A DNA stretch of 64,000 nucleotides. It comes from Lentzea tibetensis. GTDB lineage: Bacteria > Actinomycetota > Actinomycetes > Mycobacteriales > Pseudonocardiaceae. The stretch spans positions 62,001 through 126,000 of the forward strand of contig NZ_VOBR01000020.1 of assembly GCF_007845675.1 (NCBI RefSeq). The letters are read 5' to 3'. Made by a program: the position numbers and the translations under genes. A model generated the notes under the pieces. The model saw nothing but the letters and a program-made list of their open reading frames with translations, did no database searches and had not been told where the DNA came from. Shown here one piece after another: positions 40,368-52,322 of the stretch (positions are counted from its first letter, which is position 1; the number at the start of each line of letters is the position of its first letter).

Positions 40368-43300
40368 TCACTGGCGGGCGGACGGGCACGGTGGCTGGAA
40401 GTCGACGCCGGTGAAGTGCTCGTTCCACTCCCCCTGTCCGAGCGCCTGGAAGTTGGCGCAGATCCACGCCGCCGCGCGGTCGGTGTCGCCGTCCCACAAC
40501 CGGGTCGTGCGGTCTTCGCCACCGGTGGCCAGCGTGTGGCCGCCGGGCCGGAACGCCACCGCGTAGACGCGGGTCGTGTGGCCGGTGAGCACCGCCAGTT
40601 CGGCGGGCTTGCCGGGGTCCTGGACGTTCCACAGCCGAGTGGTGACGTCGGCGCCTGCGGTGGCGAGCGTGCTGCCGTCGGCGCTGAACGCGACCGAGTG
40701 GACGGTTTCGGTGTGACTGGTCAGGCTCGCGATCTCCTTGCCGCGCCGGGGATCGCCGACGTCCCACAGCCGGACCGTGTGGTCGGCGCTGCCGGTCGCC
40801 AGTGTGCGGCCGTCGCGGTGGAAGGCCACCGACTTGATGCTGTCGGTGTGCCCCTTCAGCGACAGCAGCTCGTACGGGTGGAGCCGGTCCGTGACGTCCC
40901 ACAGCCGCACCACGTGGCCGGAAGTGCCTCCGGCCACGATGCGACCGTCCGGGCTGAAGGCCACCGACTCGATGTTGTCGACGTCCGAGTCGCCCGTCAG
41001 CACGGTCAGCTGACGTGGCTGCCGGGCGTCGGCGACGTCCCACAGGCGCAGCGAGTGGTCCGCGCTGCCGGTCGCCAACGTCCGGCCGTCCGGGCTGAAC
41101 GCCACCGACTGCACCGACTCGGCGTGACCGGTGAGAGTGGCGAGCTCACCCGGCCGCTGCGGATCGGCCAGGTCCCACAGGCGGACCGTGCGGTCGAGGC
41201 TCGCGGTGGCGAGCAACCGGCTGTCAGGGCTGAAGGTCACGGAGTTGACCGCCGCGGTGTGCGTGGTCGACAGAGCGACATGCCGGGGCCGTCGCACGTC
41301 ACCGATGTCCCACAACCGGACCGTGCCGTCGTAGCTGCCGGTGGCCGTGAAGCGGCCGTCGGGGCTGAACGCCACGGTGTAGACGGCGTCGTCGTGCCCG
41401 GTGAGCACCGGGCCGGGGATGTCCCACAACCGCACGGTGCGGTCGAACCCGGCGGTGGCCAGGGTGCGTCCGTCCGGGGTGAACCGCGCGGTCAGCACCG
41501 GACCGGTGTGGCCCTGCAGGACAGCGAGCTCTCGGGGGCGGCGCGGCGCGGTGACGTCCCAGAGCCGCACGTCGCGCCCCAGGCTGGCGGTGGCCAGGGT
41601 GTGGCCGTCCGGACTGAACGTGACCGCGTGGATGCCGTTCATGTTGTCGGTGAAGACCGCCAGCTCCTCGGGGTGGCGCGGGTCGGTGACCTGCCAGAGG
41701 TGCACGGCGTGGTCGGAGGTGATGCTCGCCAGGGTGGTGCCGTCAGGGCTGAAGGCGACCGATCCGGGCTTGTCGGTGTGCGTCCCCACCAACGCCTGCT
41801 CCGCAGGTGCACCGGGGTTCGTGACGTCCCACAGCCGGACGGTGCGGTCCCAGCTGACCGTCGCCAGCGTGCGGCTCCTCGGACTGAACGCGACCGTGGT
41901 CACCACGTCGGTGTGACCGGTGAGAATGCCGATCTGCCTGGCGTTGCGGGGATCGGTGACGTCCCACAGGCGAACGGTGTGGTCGCTGCTCGCGGTGGCC
42001 AGCAGGGTGCCGTCCGGCGCGAACGCGGCCGACACGACGGCGTGCTCGTGCCCGGTCAGCGGGACCAACTTGGCCGGATGACGGGGATCGGCGAGGTCCC
42101 ACAGCCGGACCGTCCTGTCCTCGCCCGTGGTGACCAGCACCGTGCCCGCCGGGTTGAACGCCACCGACCAGACCGTGCCGGTGTGCGCGGTGAGCACGGA
42201 CAGCTCGACCGGGTGATGGGGGTCGGAGATGTCCCGCACCCGGACGGTGTGGTCGGAGCTCGCCGAGGCCAGCAGTCGCCCGTCCGGGCTGACGGCCACC
42301 GACTGGACGATCGCCTCGTGGCCGGTCAACCGGGTCGCGACCGGCGTGGCCGCCGCGCTGAGCAGGCTGCTGCGGGCCTCGAAGGTGGGCGCCACCTGGA
42401 AAGCGGCCAGGCTGAGCTGGGCGGCCAGGCCCGGATTGCTGGTGCGCGACGTGGCGGCCTGTCCGGCGACCTTCTGGGACAGCGCCGTGTTGCGCTGCCC
42501 GGCGATCGTCTGCCCGGCTTCGGCGGCGAAGATGGTGGTCGCGGTCGCGAGCACGAGCAGTGCGGTGAGCACCCCGACGAGCTGCCGCAGCCGGCGCGCC
42601 CCGCGACGAGCCGCGGCCTGTTCCTCGGTTCGCGCCGCCGCGCTCGCGGCGAGGAAGTCCTTTTCGGACGGACTGAGCGCCACGCCCGCACGGGCCCACT
42701 CCTGCGCCACGTCCAGCCGCACCCCCCGGTACAGCGAGCCAGGATCACGGCGCAGCGCCAGCCAGTCCGCGGTCGCGTCGGTGAGGCCGCGGTGGATCCG
42801 CAGCCCGTCGCGGTCCTCGGCCAGCCAGGCGCGCAGCCGCGGCCACGAGCGGATGAGGGCTTCGTGCGCGATCTCCACGCCGTCCGAGTCGAGCACGATC
42901 AGGCGCGCGGTCGCCAGCCGCTCCAGCACCTCCAGGGTGCTCCCGTCGGAACGGTCGAGCTCGTCGACGCTCACCCGGCGCTTGGTGTCCTCGGTGCCCT
43001 GCCCGAGGGCGCACAGGCGGAGGAAGAGCTGCTTGGCGATGCGTTGCCGTTCGGCGGGCAGGTGGTTGTAGACGTCCTCCGCGGTGTGGGCGACCGCGTG
43101 CTCGATCCCGCCGGCCGCCTCGTAGCCCGCCGTGGTCAGCGTGGTGCCGCGTCGCCGCCGCCACGTCTCCATCAGCGCGTGGGACAGCAGCGGCAGCACC
43201 CCCGGCTGGCCGGAGGCTTCCGCGACGATGCGGGTCACCAGCGCGGACTCCACCGTGCACTTGGCGCGCACCGCGGGCTGGACGACGGCGAGCCTCAGCT

Positions 43301-44159
43301 CGTCGGCCGTCATCGGCCCGACCGTGACCTGACCCGCCCGCAGCACGTCCACCAGCTCCGGGTGCGTGGTGCAGTGGGCGTAGAAGTCCGCGCGCACGCC
43401 GAGCACGACGCGGCAACGGCTGTTGTCGGTCTGCGCGGCGGTCAGCAACTGGTCGATGAACCGAACCCGCTCGTCGGCGTCACGGCACAGGGTGAAGACC
43501 TCTTCGAACTGGTCGACCACCAGCGTCAGCTCGGCGTCGTCCGGCACCACCTGCCGGACCGCGCGGTGCAGCTCCCGCCGGTCCCCACCGAGCGGTTCCA
43601 CCGGCGAGCCCGCGAACCGGCCGAGGTGGATGGCGCACTCCTCGAGCGGGTGCGTCCCCGGCGTGAACAGCACCACCGGACCGGACGAGCCCGCGACCAG
43701 CCCGGCCCGCAGCAGCGACGACTTGCCCGAACCCGACGCGCCGACGACCACCACGACGCGGTGCTCCGCGAGGCGGGAGACCAGCTCCCGCACCAACGGG
43801 TCCCGCCCGAAGAACCTCTCCGCGTCCTCCGCCTGGAACGCCGCCAGCCCCACGTAGGGCGGTGAGCCGGGCCCGTCGACGGGCTCCGGTGGTTCCATCT
43901 CGGCCGCGACCTCGCGCCAGCGCTGCTCCCACTCGTCGGCCGCTCCCCCGCAGGCGCTCACGTACGCGAGCGCGACCTGCAGGCTCGGCAACCGGCGCCC
44001 CGCGGCGGCCTGCGACAGCACCGCCTGCGAGTAATGCGTCTCCGCGCTCAGCTCCCGGTACGTCGGCGATCCAGCCTTTTCCCGCAACAACCGCAGGTCT
44101 CGGGCGAATCTGAGCAGCGCACTGTCACCCGCGTCGAGCGGGCGTTCCCCTCTTGGCAT
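40368..44159 (-). CDS. HTH-nSTAND1-WD40 signalling protein
   Basis: A 1263-residue multi-domain protein. Residues 10-85: XRE-like helix-turn-helix (TYRELSAETHYSQAVLSQAAAG). Residues 100-510: nSTAND1 NTPase module with a lead FFGRDPLVRELVSRL, Walker A GASGSGKSS at 140-148 and Walker B VVDQFEE at 214-220. Residues 526-546: one predicted transmembrane helix (LVGVLTALLVLATATTIFA). From about 610 to the end: some fourteen WD40 blades (TGHTDVVTTVAFSP, VRLWDVTDP and variants). The architecture is that of actinobacterial STAND regulators that couple ligand sensing by the propeller to NTP-driven oligomerisation. It is flanked on both sides by secreted inhibitor-like genes and may regulate them. Confidence 0.92.
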   Translation of the reverse strand: MPRGERPLDAGDSALLRFARDLRLLREKAGSPTYRELSAETHYSQAVLSQAAAGRRLPSLQVALAYVSACGGAADEWEQRWREVAAEMEPPEPVDGPGSPPYVGLAAFQAEDAERFFGRDPLVRELVSRLAEHRVVVVVGASGSGKSSLLRAGLVAGSSGPVVLFTPGTHPLEECAIHLGRFAGSPVEPLGGDRRELHRAVRQVVPDDAELTLVVDQFEEVFTLCRDADERVRFIDQLLTAAQTDNSRCRVVLGVRADFYAHCTTHPELVDVLRAGQVTVGPMTADELRLAVVQPAVRAKCTVESALVTRIVAEASGQPGVLPLLSHALMETWRRRRGTTLTTAGYEAAGGIEHAVAHTAEDVYNHLPAERQRIAKQLFLRLCALGQGTEDTKRRVSVDELDRSDGSTLEVLERLATARLIVLDSDGVEIAHEALIRSWPRLRAWLAEDRDGLRIHRGLTDATADWLALRRDPGSLYRGVRLDVAQEWARAGVALSPSEKDFLAASAAARTEEQAAARRGARRLRQLVGVLTALLVLATATTIFAAEAGQTIAGQRNTALSQKVAGQAATSRTSNPGLAAQLSLAAFQVAPTFEARSSLLSAAATPVATRLTGHEAIVQSVAVSPDGRLLASASSDHTVRVRDISDPHHPVELSVLTAHTGTVWSVAFNPAGTVLVTTGEDRTVRLWDLADPRHPAKLVPLTGHEHAVVSAAFAPDGTLLATASSDHTVRLWDVTDPRNARQIGILTGHTDVVTTVAFSPRSRTLATVSWDRTVRLWDVTNPGAPAEQALVGTHTDKPGSVAFSPDGTTLASITSDHAVHLWQVTDPRHPEELAVFTDNMNGIHAVTFSPDGHTLATASLGRDVRLWDVTAPRRPRELAVLQGHTGPVLTARFTPDGRTLATAGFDRTVRLWDIPGPVLTGHDDAVYTVAFSPDGRFTATGSYDGTVRLWDIGDVRRPRHVALSTTHTAAVNSVTFSPDSRLLATASLDRTVRLWDLADPQRPGELATLTGHAESVQSVAFSPDGRTLATGSADHSLRLWDVADARQPRQLTVLTGDSDVDNIESVAFSPDGRIVAGGTSGHVVRLWDVTDRLHPYELLSLKGHTDSIKSVAFHRDGRTLATGSADHTVRLWDVGDPRRGKEIASLTSHTETVHSVAFSADGSTLATAGADVTTRLWNVQDPGKPAELAVLTGHTTRVYAVAFRPGGHTLATGGEDRTTRLWDGDTDRAAAWICANFQALGQGEWNEHFTGVDFQPPCPSARQ

Positions 44160-44269: not shown

Positions 44270-44361
44270 GGTTGTTTGTTTGGCGCTCGCCACCGATCCG
44301 AATCAACGCGGCCGAGCTAGCTTGGGGCCACCTCGATCGAGCAAGAACTGGGGAGGAATAC

Positions 44362-44886
44362 GTGATCCGTACGTTGTCGAGGCCTCGCAGGGTGGTCGCC
44401 GCAGCGGCGATGGCACTGCTGGCCGTCATTTCGTTCAGCAGCCCGGCTTCTGCCGATGTGCCACCGCCGACCACGAGCAACTGGACGGTGGATGCCTGGT
44501 CCGACGGTGCGCTGGACTCCATGGTGGCCGCGAACCCCGGCGCCAGGCGAATCAGCCAGGACACCGTGATTTTCGCCGACGGGGGCGGCGTGAAAGCAGC
44601 GCCCGCGGCCGGTACGTGCCTGTACCGGTATCTCTGCGTCTGGAAGGGATTGGGCTACAACGGGGCGAAGCTCATGTTCTGGAAGTGCGAGTTCCGGAAC
44701 TTCGGCGCCGAATACCCCGGCTGGAGCGACGCGATTCGCTCGTACCAGAACCACCAGAGCGGAGGGGCGGTCTCCGTCTTCTACGACTGGCAGGGACGGT
44801 GGATCGAGGTCGAGCGGACGCGGGCCATCGAGGACATCCCCGTCGAGCGCGGTGCGGGCCGGGCCGACGGCGTGCAGGTGTGCTGA
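44362..44886 (+). CDS. Secreted crystallin/I36-like protein, paralogue 3
   Basis: A 174-residue exported relative of the two tandem proteins at 39348-40315. Signal peptide to about PASAD, then AANPGARRISQDTVIFADGG, CLYRYLCVWKGLGYNGAKL, CEFRNFGAEYPGWSDAIRSY and the terminal Gly-Val-Gln-Val-Cys. The GTG has GGGGAGG six bases upstream. It is divergent from the nSTAND-WD40 gene and followed by a perfect palindromic terminator. More diverged than the tandem pair; similar extracellular role presumed. Confidence 0.78.
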   Translation: MIRTLSRPRRVVAAAAMALLAVISFSSPASADVPPPTTSNWTVDAWSDGALDSMVAANPGARRISQDTVIFADGGGVKAAPAAGTCLYRYLCVWKGLGYNGAKLMFWKCEFRNFGAEYPGWSDAIRSYQNHQSGGAVSVFYDWQGRWIEVERTRAIEDIPVERGAGRADGVQVC

Positions 44887-44967: not shown

Positions 44968-46185
44968 TCAAAACGTGCGCGCGGAAGCGCGAGCATCCCT
45001 CGGCTTCGCCCTGCCGACCTGCACGGCCATCCCCAGCCCCGCGAGCACGAAGATGCCGGCGAGCACGAACCAGCCGGGCGGGCCGAGCTGGATGGTCAGC
45101 AGGATGAGCGCCGCGGGGGCGATCTGCTGCGCCGCGGCGGTTCCGGTGTTGAACAGCCCCAGGTACTGACCGGTGGCGTCGCGCGGCGCGAGCTCGTAGC
45201 TCACCACCCACGCTCCCGACGCCTGGAGCATCTCGCCGTGCGCGTGCACCGCCGCACCCACGACGAGCAGCAGCACGGTCACCGGCGTGGAGACGTACGA
45301 GGCCGTCGCGAACAGCACGCAGGCCGCCGCGAGCAGCAGACCGGTCGTGCGCACCTCGCGGGCCGCCTTCGCCAGCGTGTCGACGCGCGTGCTGACCCTG
45401 ATCTGGAACAGGACGACCGCCGTCGTGTTCACCACCACCAGCACCGCGACGAGGAACCGGGGTGCGTCGGTGTACCTCGTGATCCACAGCGGCAGCACGA
45501 CCTCGATCAGCGGCGCGTGCAGCAACAGCAGCATGTTCGTCGCGGCGAGTGCGACGTAGCGGCGGTCGCGCAGCACCGCGTACCAGCGCGGACGTTCGCC
45601 GGCCTCGGCATCCGCCGCCCGGTCGGGCAGTCGCAGGAACACCGCGGCGCACGCGACGAAGCTCACCGCGTCCAGCGCGAGGACCGCCAGGTACGCCTCG
45701 CGGGTGTCCACGACCAGCGCGACCGCGGCGAATCCCGCGCCGACGGTGACCCCGATGTTGGTAACGCTGCGGAGAAAGGCCCTGGTGCGCACCAGCTTCT
45801 CGCCGTCGACGACGGAGACGATCAGCGCCTGCCTCGCTGCGTAGGCGGCCCGGTCGCACACCGCGAACGCCACCGCGACCACGACGAACAGCCACGCGCT
45901 GCTGACGAACAGGTAGCCGGCCACGCACAGGCCGGTCAGCGCGGTGAGCACGGCGGTGGTGCGGCGAGGCCCGTGGACGTCCGCGAGGTGACCGCCGGGC
46001 ACACCCGCGAACAACCCCGCCAGCCCGGCCGCGGTCAGGCCGGCGCCCATCGTCAGCGGCGACAGGCCCGCGACACGGGTGAAGTACAGGGCGGACGCGG
46101 TGATGAACGCCCCGTTGCCCACGGTCGTCGCGAAGATCGCCGCCGCGAGCGTCCGCGCCGGACCTGGTTCGGGCAGCAGGGCTAT
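44968..46185 (-). CDS. MFS transporter, probable exporter of the cluster product
   Basis: A roughly 405-residue major facilitator with about twelve membrane helices: ALYFTRVAGLSPLTMGAGLT, GHLADVHGPRRTTAVLT (the loop 2-3 motif) and ATGQYLGLFNTGTAAAQQIAPA. The N-terminus is uncertain: there is no ATG, GTG or TTG in frame between the upstream gene stop and the first helix. Candidates are ATA 46185, CTG 46179 or a truncated start at GTG 46122, and a sequence error is possible. It overlaps the PhyH gene end and is the last gene of the radical-SAM/ATP-grasp run. Inferred role: export of, or self-protection from, its product. Confidence 0.8.
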   Translation of the reverse strand: MALLPEPGPARTLAAAIFATTVGNGAFITASALYFTRVAGLSPLTMGAGLTAAGLAGLFAGVPGGHLADVHGPRRTTAVLTALTGLCVAGYLFVSSAWLFVVVAVAFAVCDRAAYAARQALIVSVVDGEKLVRTRAFLRSVTNIGVTVGAGFAAVALVVDTREAYLAVLALDAVSFVACAAVFLRLPDRAADAEAGERPRWYAVLRDRRYVALAATNMLLLLHAPLIEVVLPLWITRYTDAPRFLVAVLVVVNTTAVVLFQIRVSTRVDTLAKAAREVRTTGLLLAAACVLFATASYVSTPVTVLLLVVGAAVHAHGEMLQASGAWVVSYELAPRDATGQYLGLFNTGTAAAQQIAPAALILLTIQLGPPGWFVLAGIFVLAGLGMAVQVGRAKPRDARASARTF

Positions 46186-46883
46186 GACTTCACGCTCCAG
46201 CCGTCGGCGTAGGCGGGGTGGAAGCTCCGCCCGCGCACCGCGAGCCGCCGCCCGTGCGCCACCTTGCCGCCCTCGTGCACCAGATCGCTGTCGATCACCA
46301 GCAGCGTGCCCGCCGGTCCGTCGACGGGCCGGGTGTCCTGCGGAACGGAGTCGGGCAGCACCCTGGTCTCGTCCTGTCCGGGCAGCACGCCCGCCAGCCG
46401 GTTCTCCCGCTGGGCCGCCTTCGCGTAGCCGTGCGATCCGGGGACGCAGCGGAACGCGCCGGTGCTCTCGTCCACGTCCGTCAGGTACAGGAAGAACTTG
46501 AGGTTCGGCATGCGGTCGTAGTGCGGGTGGTGCGCCGCGTGCACGGTGCCGGGCAGGTCGAGCACGGCGATCACGTCGTGGTTGAACAGGTGCGGTTCGT
46601 CGCCGAAGAACGCCGCGGCCACCTCGCGCATCCACGGCCGGTCGAACACCTCGTCCAGCACCGGGAAGCCGGCGCGCACGAACTCCCGCTCGGCCCGCAC
46701 ACCCGCGCCGCCCGAGTAGTCCAGCCGCTTCGCCCGTTCCGGCGGAGCCTCGAGAAACCGTTCCACGTCCGCGACCAGGCGGGCGTTCTCGGCGGGCGAC
46801 AGGTAGCCGGGCACGCGCGCGATGCCGTGCTCGACCACGGCGGCCAGCACGTCGGCCTGCTCCGCTGCCACGGTGAAAGTCAT
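46182..46883 (-). CDS. PhyH-family Fe(II)/2-oxoglutarate dioxygenase
   Basis: A 233-residue phytanoyl-CoA dioxygenase family enzyme. The iron ligands can be placed: H121 and D123 in HPHYDRMPN, and H203 in DSDLVHEGG; the Arg that holds 2-oxoglutarate is probably in HGRRLAVRGRS. YLTDVDESTGAFRCVPGSH is characteristic. Such enzymes hydroxylate or halogenate small molecules and are frequent tailoring enzymes in natural-product clusters. ATG 46883 has GGAGG upstream. It sits between the histidine phosphatase and the exporter, 64 bases after the former. Confidence 0.88.
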   Translation of the reverse strand: MTFTVAAEQADVLAAVVEHGIARVPGYLSPAENARLVADVERFLEAPPERAKRLDYSGGAGVRAEREFVRAGFPVLDEVFDRPWMREVAAAFFGDEPHLFNHDVIAVLDLPGTVHAAHHPHYDRMPNLKFFLYLTDVDESTGAFRCVPGSHGYAKAAQRENRLAGVLPGQDETRVLPDSVPQDTRPVDGPAGTLLVIDSDLVHEGGKVAHGRRLAVRGRSFHPAYADGWSVKS

Positions 46884-46972
46884 CGTTGTCCTCCAGTCAG
46901 CACCGGCAGGTCCACCCACGACCTCGCCTCCCCCACCACCACGAAAGTCACCGTCGTTCCTCAGTCAGCACC
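46875..46972. repeat. Diverged 30-bp direct repeat around the PhyH start
   Basis: The 30 bases at 46875-46904 (the PhyH start codon and ribosome site) recur at 46943-46972, across the end of the phosphatase gene, with 24 of 30 matches. This looks like an old local duplication of 68 bp that created, or displaced, the PhyH start region. Confidence 0.5.
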
Positions 46973-47478
46973 AGATGTCCCGCGGGCGGCAGATCCGCCC
47001 ACGGTCCGACCTCCCCCAACAGCCGCCGCACCACCGCGTAGGCGGTGTTCGCGTGGGTGACCACCACCAACGGATCGCCCGCCACGTCGTCGATCGCCTC
47101 GACCGCCCGGTCGGCCACGGCGTCGAGCCCTTCGCGGTTCTCGCCGGGCGCCCACAACTCGCCTGCCCGCCACCGCGCGTACTCCGCGGGAAACCGTTGG
47201 CGCACCTCGGAGTGATCCAGCCCGCTCCACGCGCCGAGGTGCTCCTCGCGCAGCCGTGCGTCGACGGTGAACCCGAGGCCGGCCGCGGCCGCGATCTCGG
47301 CGGCGGTGGCGGTGGCCCGCGCCAGGTCGCTGCTGATCACCGCGCGCGGGCGGAGCGCGGCCACGGTCCGCGCCACCGTCTTCGCCTCGACGAGGCCCTG
47401 AGCGCTGAGCTCGACGTCGCGGTGCCCGGTGAACCGGCCCGGCCACACCGTCGCCCCGTGCCGCACCAGCACGATCAC
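46948..47478 (-). CDS. Histidine phosphatase (phosphoglycerate mutase-like)
   Basis: A 176-residue histidine-phosphatase-superfamily enzyme. The phospho-acceptor His7 is in VLVRHGAT; SSDLARATATAAEIA, REEHLGAWSGL and the second His in VVVTHANTA complete the pattern. It would remove a phosphate from a small metabolite; in this cluster, possibly a phosphorylated intermediate. The GTG at 47478 overlaps the SDR gene stop (GTGA) and gives the usual family N-terminus; a GTG at 47487 is possible. Confidence 0.88.
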   Translation of the reverse strand: MIVLVRHGATVWPGRFTGHRDVELSAQGLVEAKTVARTVAALRPRAVISSDLARATATAAEIAAAAGLGFTVDARLREEHLGAWSGLDHSEVRQRFPAEYARWRAGELWAPGENREGLDAVADRAVEAIDDVAGDPLVVVTHANTAYAVVRRLLGEVGPWADLPPAGHLVLTEERR

Positions 47479-48245
47479 CCGTGCCACGCACCCAGCCCCC
47501 CGGACACGTCGACGACGGCACCGACCACGTAGGACGACAACGGCGAGAGCAGCATCGCCACGATCGGGGCGACCTCCTCGGGCGTGCCGAACCGGCCGAC
47601 CGGGATCCCGCGCCTGGCCGCCTCCCGCGCGGACCACGAGGCGAAGTCCAGGTCCGTGCCGGACCGCGCGTGCTTGGCGTGCTGCCGCTCGGTGCTGATC
47701 GCGCCGAGGTTCACCGTGTTCACCCGGACACCGCGCGGCGTGAGCGTGCTCGCCAGCATCGTGGCCAGCGCGCCCGCGGCGGCCCGTGCGGCGCTCACCG
47801 CGGCCATGTCCGGTTCGGGGGCGCGCGCCGTGACGCCGTTCATCAGCACGACGGCGCCATCGGTCGTGAGGTGCTCGACCGCGGGCTCGACGAGGTTGAG
47901 CACGCTGGACAACTTCACGTCGCACTGGTCGCGCCACACGTCGAGCGGCGTGTCGAGCACGCCGCCCACCGCGCCGGCGCCCGCGTTCGCGACGACGCCG
48001 TCGATCCCACCGAGCTCCGCGGCGGCCTCGGCGACGAACTCCCGCATCCGGTCCCGGTCGCGGACGTCGGCCTGCCGCGCCACCAGCCGATCAGTGTCTC
48101 CCCAGGCCTCGCGCAGGACCGACTCGTCACGCGCGCAGGTCGCCACCCGCGCGCCCTCGGCGAGCAGGGTGGCGACGACCGCCCTGCCGATCCCCCGGCT
48201 GCCGCCGGTGACCACGTACCGGCGACCGGCCAGATCCAGGTCCAT
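47475..48245 (-). CDS. SDR-fold protein lacking the catalytic Tyr-Lys pair
   Basis: A 256-residue short-chain dehydrogenase/reductase fold protein. The cofactor loop VVTGGSRGIGRAV and VVANAGAGAVGG are intact. At the active site the family YxxxK motif is replaced: MAAVSAARAAAGAL puts Val at position 150 and Arg at 154, and the usual catalytic Ser region reads VLMNGVTA. It may therefore not be a conventional oxidoreductase. It follows the ATP-grasp gene by 30 bases and is coupled to the phosphatase gene. Start ATG 48245 with a GAGG site upstream. Confidence 0.85.
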   Translation of the reverse strand: MDLDLAGRRYVVTGGSRGIGRAVVATLLAEGARVATCARDESVLREAWGDTDRLVARQADVRDRDRMREFVAEAAAELGGIDGVVANAGAGAVGGVLDTPLDVWRDQCDVKLSSVLNLVEPAVEHLTTDGAVVLMNGVTARAPEPDMAAVSAARAAAGALATMLASTLTPRGVRVNTVNLGAISTERQHAKHARSGTDLDFASWSAREAARRGIPVGRFGTPEEVAPIVAMLLSPLSSYVVGAVVDVSGGLGAWHG

Positions 48246-48275
48246 GACATCTCCTCGCCTCGGCTCCCCGCCTGC

Positions 48276-49472
48276 TTACCGCAGGTCCCAGGCGATCTGC
48301 TCGCCGAGCCAGCGCACGACCTCGTCGTGCACCGGCACGAGCCCTGCCGGATCGTCGGCGGTGAACAGCACGTCGGCGGCCAGTGCGGACGCCTTGCGGG
48401 TGCGCTCGAGCCGTTGCCCGGCAACGACGTGCGGCCGCCAGTCGACGACACCGCTGACCGGGCAGGTCGCGGGCATCCTGGTGACCCGGCCACCGGGCGC
48501 GGGCAGGAGCACGAAACCGGCCGCGGCCTGAGCGTTCTCGCGCGGCAGGTCCGTGATGCCCGCCTGGCCGAGGCACGACCACCGCTCCAGGTCGACACCG
48601 AGCGCGATCCGGGCCTGGTCGTTGATCCGGCCGCCGCCGGTCCTGGCGGTGATCTCGCACAGGACCACGTCCTCACCCGGCACGTCGAAGAGCTCGCAGT
48701 GGAAGCTCGTCGGCTCCTGCGGGCCCGGCATGGCCTTGACCAGCCGCTCGACGTACGCGGCCGCCCGCACCGCCACCGGATCGTCGTCGTCCAGTCCCAC
48801 CACCCCCAACGGCTGGAGGCCGGCGACCAGGCCGTGGCACGTGCCGACGTACCTGCTCACCATCCGCACCAGCACGTCGCCCGCCGCCATCACCCCGTCG
48901 ACCAGCACCATCGGCGCGTCGACGTGCTGCTCGACCACCAGTCCGGCCGAGGAGTCCCACGGCGTGCGCCGCGCCGCCGCCCAGGCGGTCAGCTCGTCAC
49001 GGCTCAGCACGGTGACGTCGAGCGCACCCGAACCGTCGACCGGCTTGACCACCACCCGGTCCCGCCCTGCGGCGAAGTCGAGCAGGTCCCACACGGTGTC
49101 CACGCGTGCGAACTCCGGCGTCGCGAGACCGGCCTCGGCGGCGAGCCGCTTCATCACCACCTTGTCCCGGAAGGCAACCGCGGATCGAGTGTCCATTCCG
49201 GACACACCGAGCAGGTCGCGCAGCTCGCCCGCGCGCACCAGGTCGCACTCGCTCAACGCGACGATCCGGTCGAACGGCCGCCGCCGGTGCGCGGCGACCA
49301 CGGCGAGGTCGACGGCCCGGTTGGCCTTCCAGTCGTCGAACACCTCGACCGAGCCGAACCCGGCGGTGGACGGCGGCGGCTGGGCGGCGAACAGCGCCAC
49401 GTCGTGCCCGGCCAGCCAGCTGCCGACCGGGTGTGCGCGCAGATCCTTCTTGCACAGCACCGCAATCCTCAT
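48276..49472 (-). CDS. ATP-grasp ligase 1
   Basis: A 398-residue ATP-grasp enzyme of the type that joins a carboxylate to an amine through an acyl phosphate. An N-terminal Rossmann-like domain (RIAVLCKKDLR, VALSECDLVRAGELRDLLG) is followed by the ATP-grasp core: VVVKPVDGSGALDV, EQHVDAPMVLVDGVMAAGD, and the metal-binding strand VVLCEITARTGGGRIND. SFHCELFDV is also typical of L-amino-acid-ligase-like members. The ATG overlaps the stop of a paralogous ligase gene. Inferred: one of two consecutive amide-bond-forming steps in a small peptide-like product. Confidence 0.88.
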   Translation of the reverse strand: MRIAVLCKKDLRAHPVGSWLAGHDVALFAAQPPPSTAGFGSVEVFDDWKANRAVDLAVVAAHRRRPFDRIVALSECDLVRAGELRDLLGVSGMDTRSAVAFRDKVVMKRLAAEAGLATPEFARVDTVWDLLDFAAGRDRVVVKPVDGSGALDVTVLSRDELTAWAAARRTPWDSSAGLVVEQHVDAPMVLVDGVMAAGDVLVRMVSRYVGTCHGLVAGLQPLGVVGLDDDDPVAVRAAAYVERLVKAMPGPQEPTSFHCELFDVPGEDVVLCEITARTGGGRINDQARIALGVDLERWSCLGQAGITDLPRENAQAAAGFVLLPAPGGRVTRMPATCPVSGVVDWRPHVVAGQRLERTRKASALAADVLFTADDPAGLVPVHDEVVRWLGEQIAWDLR

Positions 49473-50671
49473 CGCCACGGCTCCATCGCGTCCCACCAGC
49501 GCACCGCCGCGCTGATCCGCTCCCGCACCTGCGCCGCGTCGGCGCCCTCGACGACGACGGTCGCCACCGAGTCACCCGCGTGCACGGCGCCCGTGCCCCG
49601 CACGCCGGTCAACTCCAACCGCACACCGGGCACGGGACACGGTTCCGCCGGCGGGGTGAACGTCCCCTGCCGCGGCGTGATCGCGACCCAGCCGCCGTAC
49701 CGGACCGGCACGGCGGGCACGGCGGAGACCGGCAGCCCGGCCTGCCCGCGCAGGTTCTCCTTCGACAGGTGCACGCCGAACGCCGCGGCGTACACGTCCG
49801 CCACGAACGCACCGCCGGTGCGGGAAGCGGCCTCGCACAGCACCGGCGCACCTCCGTCGTGCGGCAGCCACGCCTCCAGGTGGAAGCTCGTCGGCAACGG
49901 GAAGTGCGGCAGCGCGTCGAGCACCGCGGCCGCGTGGTCGAGCAGCGGGAGGAACGACCCGTCCTGCGGAGCGAGCATGGCGCTCGTCAGCGGAACGCCG
50001 TCCCTGACCGCCTCGGCGTTGCCGCCCGAGTAGCGGCTCGGCCAGCAGTGCAGGATCCGCCCGCCGGCCGCGAGACCGTCCACGTGGCACAGCACGCCGT
50101 CCACGAACGACTCCGCCATCCACTCACCGGGCCGCGCGGGCGCCGCGGGCAGCACGCCGCAACCCAGCAGGGACACCAGGTCCGCCGCCGAGCGCAGCAC
50201 GTGCACGCCCTCCGACCCGCCACCCCGGCGCGGCTTGACCACGACGGGAAACCCGTGCACCTCGGCGAACGCGACGAGGTCGCCGGGCGTCTCGACCGCG
50301 GCGAACTCCGGCACCGCGATGCCCGCCGCCCGCGCGTACCGCTTCATCACGAGCTTGTCGCGGTAGGCGATGGCCGACGCGACGGACTGCCCGGTGAGCC
50401 CCAGCCGTTCCCGCAGCCGGGCGGCGCGGACGACGTCCACCTCGCTCGACGACGCGACGAGCTCGGCCGCACGCCGCGCGGCCAGCCGTTCGGCCTCGAT
50501 CTCGACCTGCCACGAGCCGTAGTCGTCCACCGCGACGACCTCGGCGAAGCGGTCCACAACGGACTCGTCGACCGCGCCGGTGACCGTGACGAGGCTGACC
50601 GGCGCGCCCGCCAGCCACTCGTCGACCGGCCGCTGCCGCACCGGCTTCTTGCTCAGCACCAGAACGCTCAT
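49469..50671 (-). CDS. ATP-grasp ligase 2
   Basis: A 400-residue paralogue of the neighbouring ligase with the same layout: N-terminal MSVLVLSKKPVRQRPVDEW, then YRDKLVMKRYARAAGI, VVVKPRRGGGSEGVHVL, AESFVDGVLCHVDGLAAGG, FHLEAWLPHDGG and PVLCEAASRTGGAFVAD. Both neighbours are coupled to it by ATGA overlaps. Tandem ATP-grasp ligases suggest two amide couplings with different substrates. The family match is by motif; the substrates are unknown. Confidence 0.88.
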   Translation of the reverse strand: MSVLVLSKKPVRQRPVDEWLAGAPVSLVTVTGAVDESVVDRFAEVVAVDDYGSWQVEIEAERLAARRAAELVASSSEVDVVRAARLRERLGLTGQSVASAIAYRDKLVMKRYARAAGIAVPEFAAVETPGDLVAFAEVHGFPVVVKPRRGGGSEGVHVLRSAADLVSLLGCGVLPAAPARPGEWMAESFVDGVLCHVDGLAAGGRILHCWPSRYSGGNAEAVRDGVPLTSAMLAPQDGSFLPLLDHAAAVLDALPHFPLPTSFHLEAWLPHDGGAPVLCEAASRTGGAFVADVYAAAFGVHLSKENLRGQAGLPVSAVPAVPVRYGGWVAITPRQGTFTPPAEPCPVPGVRLELTGVRGTGAVHAGDSVATVVVEGADAAQVRERISAAVRWWDAMEPWR

Positions 50672-51780
50672 GGCTTGCGCAGCAACGAGTCCGGCGCGAA
50701 CACCGGCGCCTCGGCCTTCCAGTCGATCGGCGTGGGACTGACCACCGACGTCGGCGTGCTCCAGTTCATCCGCGCCGGGCACGACGCGACGCCGTGGTCG
50801 TCCATGATCTGCGAGTACATCTCGCGGCGCTTCTGGACGCACGCCAGCAGCCCGCCGTCCTCCGGGTACCAGCTGCCGAGGTACTCGTCGGAGAAGTTGC
50901 AGATCAGCGCGTGCCCGCACGGTTCGGCGTAGATCTTGGCGACGTTCGCGCAGTCCTTCACGGTGAACCCGAGCTGCCGCGCGGGCGGGTAGCACGACAC
51001 CGTCAGCTCCGGCCCCTCGCCGGACTCGATGACCTCGCCCAGACCTTCGGCGATGCCCATGAACACGTCGAAGAGTCGTTGCGGTGAAAGGCAGAGCTCG
51101 GTCTGGTTCGTCGCGGCGAGCCCGGACGGGATCCACGGCTTGATCTGCACGACGTCCACGCCGATGCCGGCGAGCGTGTGGTACAGGTCGACGACCTCGT
51201 CGTGGTTGTGCCGCCCCATCCCGATCCGGACGAACACCCACAGCCCGGACTGCTTGGCCCGCTTGATGTTGTCCAGGATCCGTTGGGCGTCACCGTCGTG
51301 CGATCCCTTCATCAACGCGAGCAATCGCTGATCGTCCGCGGTGTTGAAGGTGACCTTCACGCCGGACAGCTTCATGTCCGTGAGCTTGGCGATCCGCTCC
51401 TCGGTGAGCAGTGTCCCGTTGGTCACCAGCCGGGTGGTGATGCCGCGCTCCCCCAACGGCCGGAACACGGCGTCCACGAGATCGAGCGCCATCAACGGCT
51501 CACCGCCGGTGCCGAACACCGCGGCGGGCTTCTCCGGTTCGTCCGGGTCGTCGATCCAGTCGAACAACGAGGTCACGAACTTGTCGGTGTCCAGCGGGTT
51601 GAGCCTCTTGCCGATGTAGTCCTCGTTCACGCAGAAGATGCAGGCGCGGTTGCACCCGTCGAGGAACTTGACCTCGACCCCGTCCGTGGGGACGTAGGAC
51701 GACAGGTCGGTTTGCGGGAAGTTCTCAGCGCGAAATTTGTAGTAAGGGTCAGAGGACGCGTTTGCGCGCAAATTCGACAC
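50668..51780 (-). CDS. Radical SAM enzyme with Cys-rich C-terminus
   Basis: A 370-residue radical SAM enzyme. The [4Fe-4S]-SAM motif is C43-x3-C47-x2-C50 in DGCNRACIFC; GTGGEP (the GGE motif) and RLVTNGTLL follow in the barrel. The C-terminal third has cysteines at 263, 277, 288, 294, 314 and 334, suggesting one or two auxiliary clusters as in SPASM/twitch enzymes that act on peptides or amino acids. GTG 51780 has GGGGGA six bases upstream. It is the first gene of the run, so its promoter, with the palindrome at 51832-51847, probably controls the cluster. Confidence 0.9.
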   Translation of the reverse strand: MSNLRANASSDPYYKFRAENFPQTDLSSYVPTDGVEVKFLDGCNRACIFCVNEDYIGKRLNPLDTDKFVTSLFDWIDDPDEPEKPAAVFGTGGEPLMALDLVDAVFRPLGERGITTRLVTNGTLLTEERIAKLTDMKLSGVKVTFNTADDQRLLALMKGSHDGDAQRILDNIKRAKQSGLWVFVRIGMGRHNHDEVVDLYHTLAGIGVDVVQIKPWIPSGLAATNQTELCLSPQRLFDVFMGIAEGLGEVIESGEGPELTVSCYPPARQLGFTVKDCANVAKIYAEPCGHALICNFSDEYLGSWYPEDGGLLACVQKRREMYSQIMDDHGVASCPARMNWSTPTSVVSPTPIDWKAEAPVFAPDSLLRKP

Positions 51781-51858: not shown

Positions 51859-52322
51859 TTAACTCGGATGGACTAGCCGGCCCGCGTCGAGCACCGCGTC
51901 CACGAAGGCGCGCGGCGCCTCCTGCGGGACGTTGTGACCGATGCCGGGGAGGGTGCGGTGCCGAGCGCCTTGTCGATCCCGAGTGCGTCCATCAGCGCGA
52001 TGACGTCCAGCGCGAACGCCGCCTGCTGGGCGTTGCGCACCGTTGCGGCGTCACGGAACCGCGTCGTCCCGTGGCCGCGCAGGTGCGGGACGATCACCCG
52101 GTGGCCCCGGCGGGCCAGCATCGGGGCGACCTCGGCGTAGCTGTGGATGTCGTAGGGCCAGCCGTGCAGCAGGATGACCGGCCTTCCCCGTGGCGGCCCG
52201 AGCTCGACGTATCCGATGTTCAGCATCCCAGCGTCGATCTGGTTGAGCGGCCCGAAGGTGGCGGGCGGCGCCCCCGCCAGTCCAGCACCCACTACCTTGC
52301 CGAAGGTTCGCCTGCTGATCAT
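51859..52322 (-). pseudogene. Alpha/beta hydrolase pseudogene, internal deletion
   Basis: The reading frame from ATG 52322 starts with a Tat-like signal (MISRRTFGKVVGAGLAG) and a normal alpha/beta-hydrolase N-terminus (VILLHGWPYDIHSYAEVAPM, VIVPHLRGHGTTRF, VIALMDALGIDKAL). It then leaves the family. In another frame the sequence resumes a hydrolase C-terminus (LPGIGHNVPQEAPRAFVDAV) and ends at a TAA at 51859. The middle of the enzyme, including the nucleophile elbow, is missing, so an internal deletion of roughly 400-450 bases with a frameshift has destroyed the gene. Confidence 0.75.

Follow-up and report, generated by a model that had tools for sequence, protein, structure and literature searches.

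A rare, conserved operon of Lentzea tibetensis that pairs a radical SAM enzyme with two ATP-grasp ligases and is predicted to make a small peptide-like metabolite

The DNA analyzed here, referred to throughout as the window, is a stretch of 64,000 nucleotides from Lentzea tibetensis (NCBI RefSeq assembly GCF_007845675.1, contig NZ_VOBR01000020.1, positions 62,001 to 126,000 of the forward strand). Our subject is a leftward block of seven genes within it, which encode a radical S-adenosylmethionine (SAM) enzyme, two ATP-grasp ligases (AG1 and AG2), a protein with the short-chain dehydrogenase/reductase (SDR) fold, a histidine phosphatase (HP), a PhyH-type Fe(II)/2-oxoglutarate oxygenase, and a predicted exporter of the major facilitator superfamily (MFS). 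The block is a rare, conserved operon whose general kind is familiar but whose putative maker of building blocks is unusual. Judging from sequence, we lean toward reading it as a small specialized-metabolite operon, in which an unusual building block would be made, joined by the ATP-grasp ligases, and exported.

The minus strand encodes all seven open reading frames (ORFs), the first beginning at 51780 and the last ending at 44968, as judged from the ORF list and a codon-level look; third-position GC is 91-95% in each, and no TTA codons occur in the seven genes. The first-pass annotation, made from the letters alone, had described seven leftward genes joined mostly by 4-base overlaps. The genes are present as described (Table 1), and the overlaps hold at only three of the six junctions (radical SAM/AG1, AG1/AG2, and SDR/HP). 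AG2 and the SDR gene are separated by 30 nt, and HP and the PhyH gene by 64 nt, or 28 nt with an upstream GTG as the start. The PhyH and MFS genes overlap or abut, the exact junction hanging on the uncertain MFS start, for which no in-frame ATG, GTG, or TTG was found in the 40 codons before or the 22 codons after the presumed translation start. Pfam agreed with every family name that the annotation had given (Radical_SAM, 1.4e-21; SDR as adh_short_C2, 3.8e-43; His_Phos_1, 1.2e-37; PhyH, 4.6e-12; MFS_1, 2.8e-30), though weakly for the two ligases, with AG1 above one cut-off and AG2 above none. As the annotation had stated, the block holds no nonribosomal peptide synthetase (NRPS) or polyketide synthase (PKS). 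Scans for promoters and terminators returned no promoter-like sites and 2 terminator-like sites, compared with 2.3 in shuffled sequence.

The order of the six core genes, radical SAM-AG1-AG2-SDR-HP-MFS, was the same in all eight loci complete enough to judge, namely the window, a genome of another family (G012), and six genomes of the genus Nocardia. Nine distinct carriers were found in total, the ninth of which (N. vinacea) breaks off inside AG1 at a contig edge. The first-pass annotation had proposed genome comparison as a check on whether these genes travel together, and by this measure they do; as the same gene order recurs in other genomes, the seven genes are not a chance run of ORFs. 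G012 carries all seven genes, PhyH included, in the order and orientation of the window, whereas the six complete Nocardia-genus loci are without PhyH, and no relative of the window PhyH was detected in any of the seven Nocardia-genus carriers by a profile search at E 1e-6 that found both positive controls. Being present in 2 of the 8 complete loci, PhyH stands outside the conserved core, and the hydroxylation suggested in the first pass is not supported as a core step.

A scan of the genome collection with a radical SAM pattern gave four loci, in N. vinacea, N. anaemiae, N. carnea, and N. jinanensis. Carriers of the radical SAM gene made up 2 of 397 genomes in the order sample (the window's own and G012), 1 of 396 in the phylum sample, and 1 of 394 in the class sample, the last two being the window's own genome; these three sets overlap and are samples rather than censuses, and in most rows scoring was confined to the five best candidates of each genome. 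Within single groups, the counts were 1 of 25 in the window's genus (its own genome only), 7 of 150 in the genus Nocardia (four of them the species just named), and 1 of 5 in the family of G012 (G012 itself). A plasmid origin was set aside: no plasmid record covered 80% of the radical SAM protein, and of the 16 that matched it the top one was a pqqE (27% identity).

Within Nocardia, the block was found in at least three different surroundings. Three loci (L003, L004, and L021) have common surroundings; three others (L005, L006, and L018) have a common upstream gene at differing distances, which is a PucR-type regulator in the two where it was searched (L005 and L006); and L023 matches other Nocardia loci inside the block only. 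Between contexts, in Nocardia pairs without common flanks, nucleotide matches longer than 400 nt span only from approximately the radical SAM start to the MFS end. Pairwise identities of the six proteins rank alike across the eight loci (Spearman 0.79-0.94), with the caveat that the split between Nocardia and the two other loci drives much of this ranking. Between the window and the other loci, the radical SAM enzyme is the most conserved protein (65-76%) and the MFS protein the least (36-42%). These patterns fit inheritance of the six genes as one unit, and the six-gene block has probably been transferred between genomes as a whole. As a separate observation, the genes upstream of the block in L003, L004, and L021 look by eye like genes of inositol catabolism (sugar kinase and 5-deoxyglucuronate isomerase types).

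AG1 and AG2 of the window are paralogues, 35% identical, as the first pass had recognized. A joint profile of the ligases matched the L-amino acid ligase 4wd3 (RizA) with E 5.9e-31 over positions 73-391 of 409, followed by 3vot (1.7e-17) and BacD (3.9e-15); the first 72 positions were unmatched. Residues K146, H264, E266, E280, and R284 are invariant in all 16 ligases of the eight loci, and the same residues stand in 4wd3, 3vot, and BacD in the printed alignments; K146, the H264-x-E266 pair, E280, and R284 are catalytic or ATP-binding residues, which both ligases retain. AG1 and AG2 are thus members of the L-amino-acid-ligase family and predicted amide formers, in line with the ligase type suggested in the first pass. 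Each is closer to its own orthologue than to the other, and these two separate orthologue sets imply that two distinct roles have been conserved.

The radical SAM enzyme carries its CX3CX2C motif at C43, C47, and C50 and a GGEP SAM-binding motif, both in all nine sequences, and scores 77.8 bits against the Radical_SAM Pfam model (cut-off 29.5), which places it in the superfamily. Four further cysteines in the C-terminal half (263, 277, 294, and 334) are also invariant in 9/9 sequences. This half gave no Pfam or NCBIfam match in any of three sequences at a limit of E 10, although the search filters drop most matches above 0.1. No family model assigned the enzyme to the SPASM/twitch group; the spacing C277-X11-G289-X4-C294 agrees with the cysteine spacing rule of SPASM/twitch domains. 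The invariant cysteines suggest that the enzyme likely binds a second, auxiliary iron-sulfur cluster.

The label "SDR-like" given in the first pass is correct as to fold and hides the absence of the catalytic residues. In 8/8 loci, glycine, valine, and arginine (G137, V150, and R154) stand where a catalytic Ser, Tyr, and Lys would be expected, such that the protein is not a classical SDR, while the nucleotide-binding glycines are retained. The textbook mechanism, which requires Ser-Tyr-Lys, is therefore impossible for the operon SDR, and an ordinary ketoreductase is an unlikely role for it. Its closest solved relative is Q9HYA2 (PDB 3lf1 and 3lf2; E 9.6e-59, the next being 8.2e-36), which in the printed alignment is likewise without Tyr and Lys at the catalytic positions but keeps a Ser where the window protein has G137. 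The phosphatase retains its RHG motif and other catalytic residues in all eight loci; it matched alpha-ribazole phosphatase, and its nearest relatives are glucosyl-3-phosphoglycerate and phosphoserine phosphatases. HxD...H is kept in both copies of PhyH (window and G012).

We also examined the neighborhoods of related ligases. The ligase profile matched 46 of 298 genomes of the order, the window's own and G012 included, and eight loci outside the block were fetched: the seven best-scoring (L054-L060) and the lower-scoring L061, which ranked below several unfetched loci. All eight have two ATP-grasp matches, and none has a relative of the window radical SAM enzyme (E 1e-4). In six of the eight, Pfam or NCBIfam identified an enzyme of amino-acid or phosphonate metabolism (Table 1), among chosen genes that include none from L056 or L061. 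An MFS match was found in four (L055, L056 weakly, L057, and L059), and one MFS protein of L059 is 44% identical to that of the window. Across these loci, a ligase pair is accompanied by a building-block maker that varies, and an argument from position would put the radical SAM enzyme, the SDR, and the phosphatase in the maker slot of the present operon.

From these components we propose the following pathway; both the sequence of its steps and its substrate are inferences. The radical SAM enzyme, probably with a second iron-sulfur cluster, would remodel a small polar substrate that is probably phosphorylated; the presence of a phosphatase suggests a phosphate on the substrate or an intermediate, which this enzyme would strip. 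The SDR-like protein may carry out a step other than ordinary ketone reduction (isomerization, elimination, or binding), and the three proteins jointly would yield an unusual acid or amino acid. One ligase might then make a dipeptide or activate the new acid, with the other adding the next residue, and the MFS protein would export the product. PhyH could add a hydroxyl in the window's species and one other, as a late or optional decoration. Two ligases that each act once can form at most two amide bonds, from which a small di- or tripeptide-like compound follows as the most economical reading. We regard as possible, though doubtful, a more specific version in which the operon defines a new class of ligase-assembled peptide: the radical SAM enzyme, with a new auxiliary-cluster domain, and the SDR lacking its catalytic tetrad would build a warhead from a phosphorylated precursor, the two ligases and the exporter would finish it, and the block would be mobile.

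Several observations weigh against an operon of this kind. The block contains neither an aminotransferase nor another evident enzyme for making amino acids, and the radical SAM product may therefore be something else. The enzyme may also act on nucleotides or sugars or on a finished peptide. Its AlphaFold model, built from nine sequences, is poor (mean pLDDT [predicted local distance difference test] 58.1) and names no substrate. No regulator common to the loci was seen beyond three Nocardia-genus loci. Moreover, among the 24 other genomes of the genus, two (G777 and G794) carry a lone SDR gene, whose product is 74-77% identical to that of the window. The radical SAM gene is absent from both genomes, and none of the other cluster genes was found in the surrounding DNA retrieved, which comprised 20 kb for G794 and, for G777, a 10.5-kb contig with the lone gene at its edge. 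Both lone frames end a few residues short of where the phosphatase gene begins in the cluster. They are either relics of a decayed block or SDRs with a role of their own. The G794 stretch also holds relatives of the window's SLAC1-type and LuxR-type neighbors, rearranged, and comparison of insertion sites within the genus revealed no empty site, only lone SDR genes and flanks that had been rearranged.

The enzyme's nearest solved relatives raise a different prospect, which we consider unlikely, namely a peptidyl-nucleoside or sugar-acid pathway: the radical SAM enzyme would act on a nucleotide or sugar (compare BlsE, MoaA, and the viperins), the phosphatase would dephosphorylate the product, and the ligases would attach amino acids. 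By sequence profile, BlsE (7.8e-8) and MoaA (1.5e-5) are closest, and pVip profiles match at 43 bits; the phosphatase, too, resembles enzymes that act on alpha-ribazole and glucosyl-3-phosphoglycerate. Foldseek with the poor model placed BlsE first (TM [template modeling] scores 0.46 and 0.51), NifB second, and viperins and SkfB after, a ranking that we treat as a lead only. Yet the BlsE, MoaA, and pVip matches cover only the common core (approximately residues 30-210), the model is of low confidence, and the seven genes include no glycosyltransferase or nucleotide hydrolase. In a PADLOC search for defense genes at 0.001, the one match was that of the radical SAM core, which hit viperin profiles at 43 and 34 bits, and we set a defense role aside.

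Rather improbable, in our estimate, is an order of events in which the ligases first join ordinary amino acids into a short peptide, which is then cross-linked or rearranged by the radical SAM enzyme, perhaps together with the SDR. The core's best NCBIfam matches include SPASM-type peptide maturases (Clo7bot and PqqE) as well as heme and molybdopterin enzymes, and the C277-to-C294 spacing noted above would suit such an enzyme. The unmatched C-terminal half speaks against it; the approximately 35 residues that precede the core leave no room for a leader-binding domain, and the phosphatase has no obvious part in such a sequence of steps. We give very little credence to a graspetide-like ribosomal peptide cluster with an overlooked precursor gene, although SPASM radical SAM enzymes are described as frequent in graspetide ATP-grasp loci (PMC8939145). 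Stop-to-stop frames of at least 18 residues, taken from approximately 800 nt on each side of seven loci, gave no match between distant loci at 1e-3 in a blastp scan that is insensitive to very short peptides and covered the flanks rather than the interior of the block. Matches were limited to short stretches among the related Nocardia loci L005, L006, and L018, several being frames of one stretch of DNA. No conserved short gene thus stands beside the block between distant loci, matching the first-pass remark that it has no obvious precursor peptide. The ligases are of the L-amino-acid-ligase type, and no graspetide ligase was among the matches listed (for AG1, the best 25 of 42). With no conserved precursor and the wrong type of ligase, a ribosomally synthesized and post-translationally modified peptide (RiPP) was set aside. 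A small operon that makes an unusual building block and joins it through two ligases remains the reading that we prefer.

Side observations were made at the flanks and in the outside loci. Directly upstream of the operon lies a shortened alpha/beta hydrolase gene, the Pfam match of which covers only profile positions 2-71 of 245 and the frame of which then continues into unrelated sequence. This gene appears to be a remnant bordering the operon. Just downstream is a gene for an nSTAND1 nucleoside triphosphatase (NTPase) with WD40 stretches, and between it and the operon stands a gene for a small protein that weakly matches peptidase inhibitor family I36 (1.6e-5). Locus L054, from a genome of the window's family, holds the ligase relative that scored highest among those of the order sample lying outside the block. 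It stands within a likely phosphonate cluster in which two ATP-grasp genes, an FAD/NAD-binding protein gene, and a phosphatidylserine-synthase-like gene accompany the phosphoenolpyruvate (PEP) mutase and aminotransferase genes. EDKx5NS, the PEP-mutase motif, is present there. A search of the loci read found this motif neither in the window nor in the eight other cluster loci, and a phosphonate reading of the block was rejected. In L058, a gene for a cysteine-synthase-like pyridoxal phosphate (PLP) enzyme, two genes for ligases related to AG1 and AG2, and a gene for a glutathione-synthetase-type ATP-grasp protein lie close together.

Table 1. Genes of the operon, its neighbors in the window, and features of other loci
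Feature	Position	Strand	Remarks
Radical SAM enzyme	50668..51780	-	370 aa, GTG start; CX3CX2C and GGEP motifs
AG1, ATP-grasp L-amino-acid ligase 1	49469..50671	-	400 aa; 4-nt overlap with radical SAM gene
AG2, ATP-grasp L-amino-acid ligase 2	48276..49472	-	398 aa; AG1 paralogue; 4-nt overlap with AG1
SDR-fold protein	47475..48245	-	256 aa; nucleotide-binding glycines present, Ser-Tyr-Lys absent
Histidine phosphatase (HP), branch 1	46948..47478	-	176 aa; RHG; 4-nt overlap with SDR
PhyH-type Fe(II)/2-oxoglutarate oxygenase	46182..46883	-	233 aa; HxD...H; accessory
MFS exporter (predicted)	44968..46185	-	~405 aa; start uncertain (ATA at 46185 or nearby CTG)
Shortened alpha/beta hydrolase gene	51873..52301	-	directly upstream of operon
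Small protein, peptidase inhibitor I36-like	44353..44886	+	between operon and WD40 gene
nSTAND1 NTPase	40368..44159	-	1263 aa; 12 WD40 stretches
Lone SDR gene	L066:14806-15537	-	translation has V and R at catalytic Tyr/Lys positions
Lone SDR gene	L070:11-739	-	translation has V and R at catalytic Tyr/Lys positions
L054, likely phosphonate cluster	L054:8254-16018	-	PEP mutase (345 bits, cut-off 319.55) and 2-aminoethylphosphonate (AEP)-type aminotransferase above cut-off
L055			Cys/Met PLP enzyme
L057, L058, L060			cysteine-synthase-like PLP enzymes
L058, PLP enzyme and ligase genes	L058:8517-14422	+	genes close together
L059			serine acetyltransferase

Cluster finders can miss gene sets that show no hallmark of an NRPS, PKS, or RiPP. 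The present block is short, conserved as a unit, and small enough to be expressed whole; it combines ligases of a well-known family with an SDR barred from the textbook mechanism and with a radical SAM enzyme, the second half of which is matched by no Pfam or NCBIfam model. Identifying the product would assign a chemistry to the SDR and the radical SAM enzyme. Among known systems, the bacilysin genes (BacA-G) encode a single ligase, the proteins BacA and BacB, active SDRs, and an MFS protein. BacD belongs to the same ligase family as AG1 and AG2, and SDR and MFS genes are common to both sets. What sets the operon apart is its second ligase, its radical SAM enzyme, and the lack of catalytic residues in its SDR.

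BlsE, the cytosylglucuronate decarboxylase of blasticidin S (PMC3715490), is the best solved relative of the radical SAM core both by sequence and in the Foldseek search with the poor model. However, the match covers the core only, at 16% identity in the Foldseek alignment; the operon enzyme has four extra invariant cysteines, and its gene partners are others.

Radical SAM genes beside ATP-grasp genes are not new in themselves, and a graspetide survey states that ATP-grasp genes had earlier been linked to dehydrogenase and radical SAM genes (PMC8939145). The first-pass annotation knew of no described pathway with this exact set, and none came up in our searches for papers on radical SAM enzymes with ATP-grasp or L-amino acid ligases, nor did a two-ligase block with a phosphatase and an SDR lacking the tetrad. 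A partial precedent is the Pbo operon of Pseudomonas syringae pv. phaseolicola, in which pboE-pboI are described as adjacent genes for an MFS protein, a radical SAM enzyme, an L-amino-acid ligase, a 2-oxoglutarate-Fe dioxygenase, and a further MFS protein, and the product of which is given there as not identified (PMC8473136). Compared by description rather than by sequence, both operons unite a radical SAM enzyme, an L-amino-acid ligase, a dioxygenase, and MFS genes. Pbo differs in having one ligase instead of two, in its NRPS and PKS parts, and in a radical SAM enzyme modeled on lysine 2,3-aminomutase; no SDR or histidine phosphatase appears among the table rows covered, which are part of its 16 genes (PMC8473136).

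In the phosphonoalamide pathway of Streptomyces (PnaA-D and PnaT), PnaC makes dipeptides and PnaB joins dipeptides to phosphonoalanine (PMC11867202). Two ATP-grasp ligases converge there on a special amino acid, as is proposed for the operon; transporter genes are present, and no NRPS takes part in the steps described (PMC11867202). The operon differs in holding neither the PEP-mutase motif nor an aminotransferase, its maker slot being filled by the radical SAM enzyme, the SDR, and the phosphatase. Overall, the proposed pathway would follow the logic of the phosphonoalamides with a different, radical-made building block.

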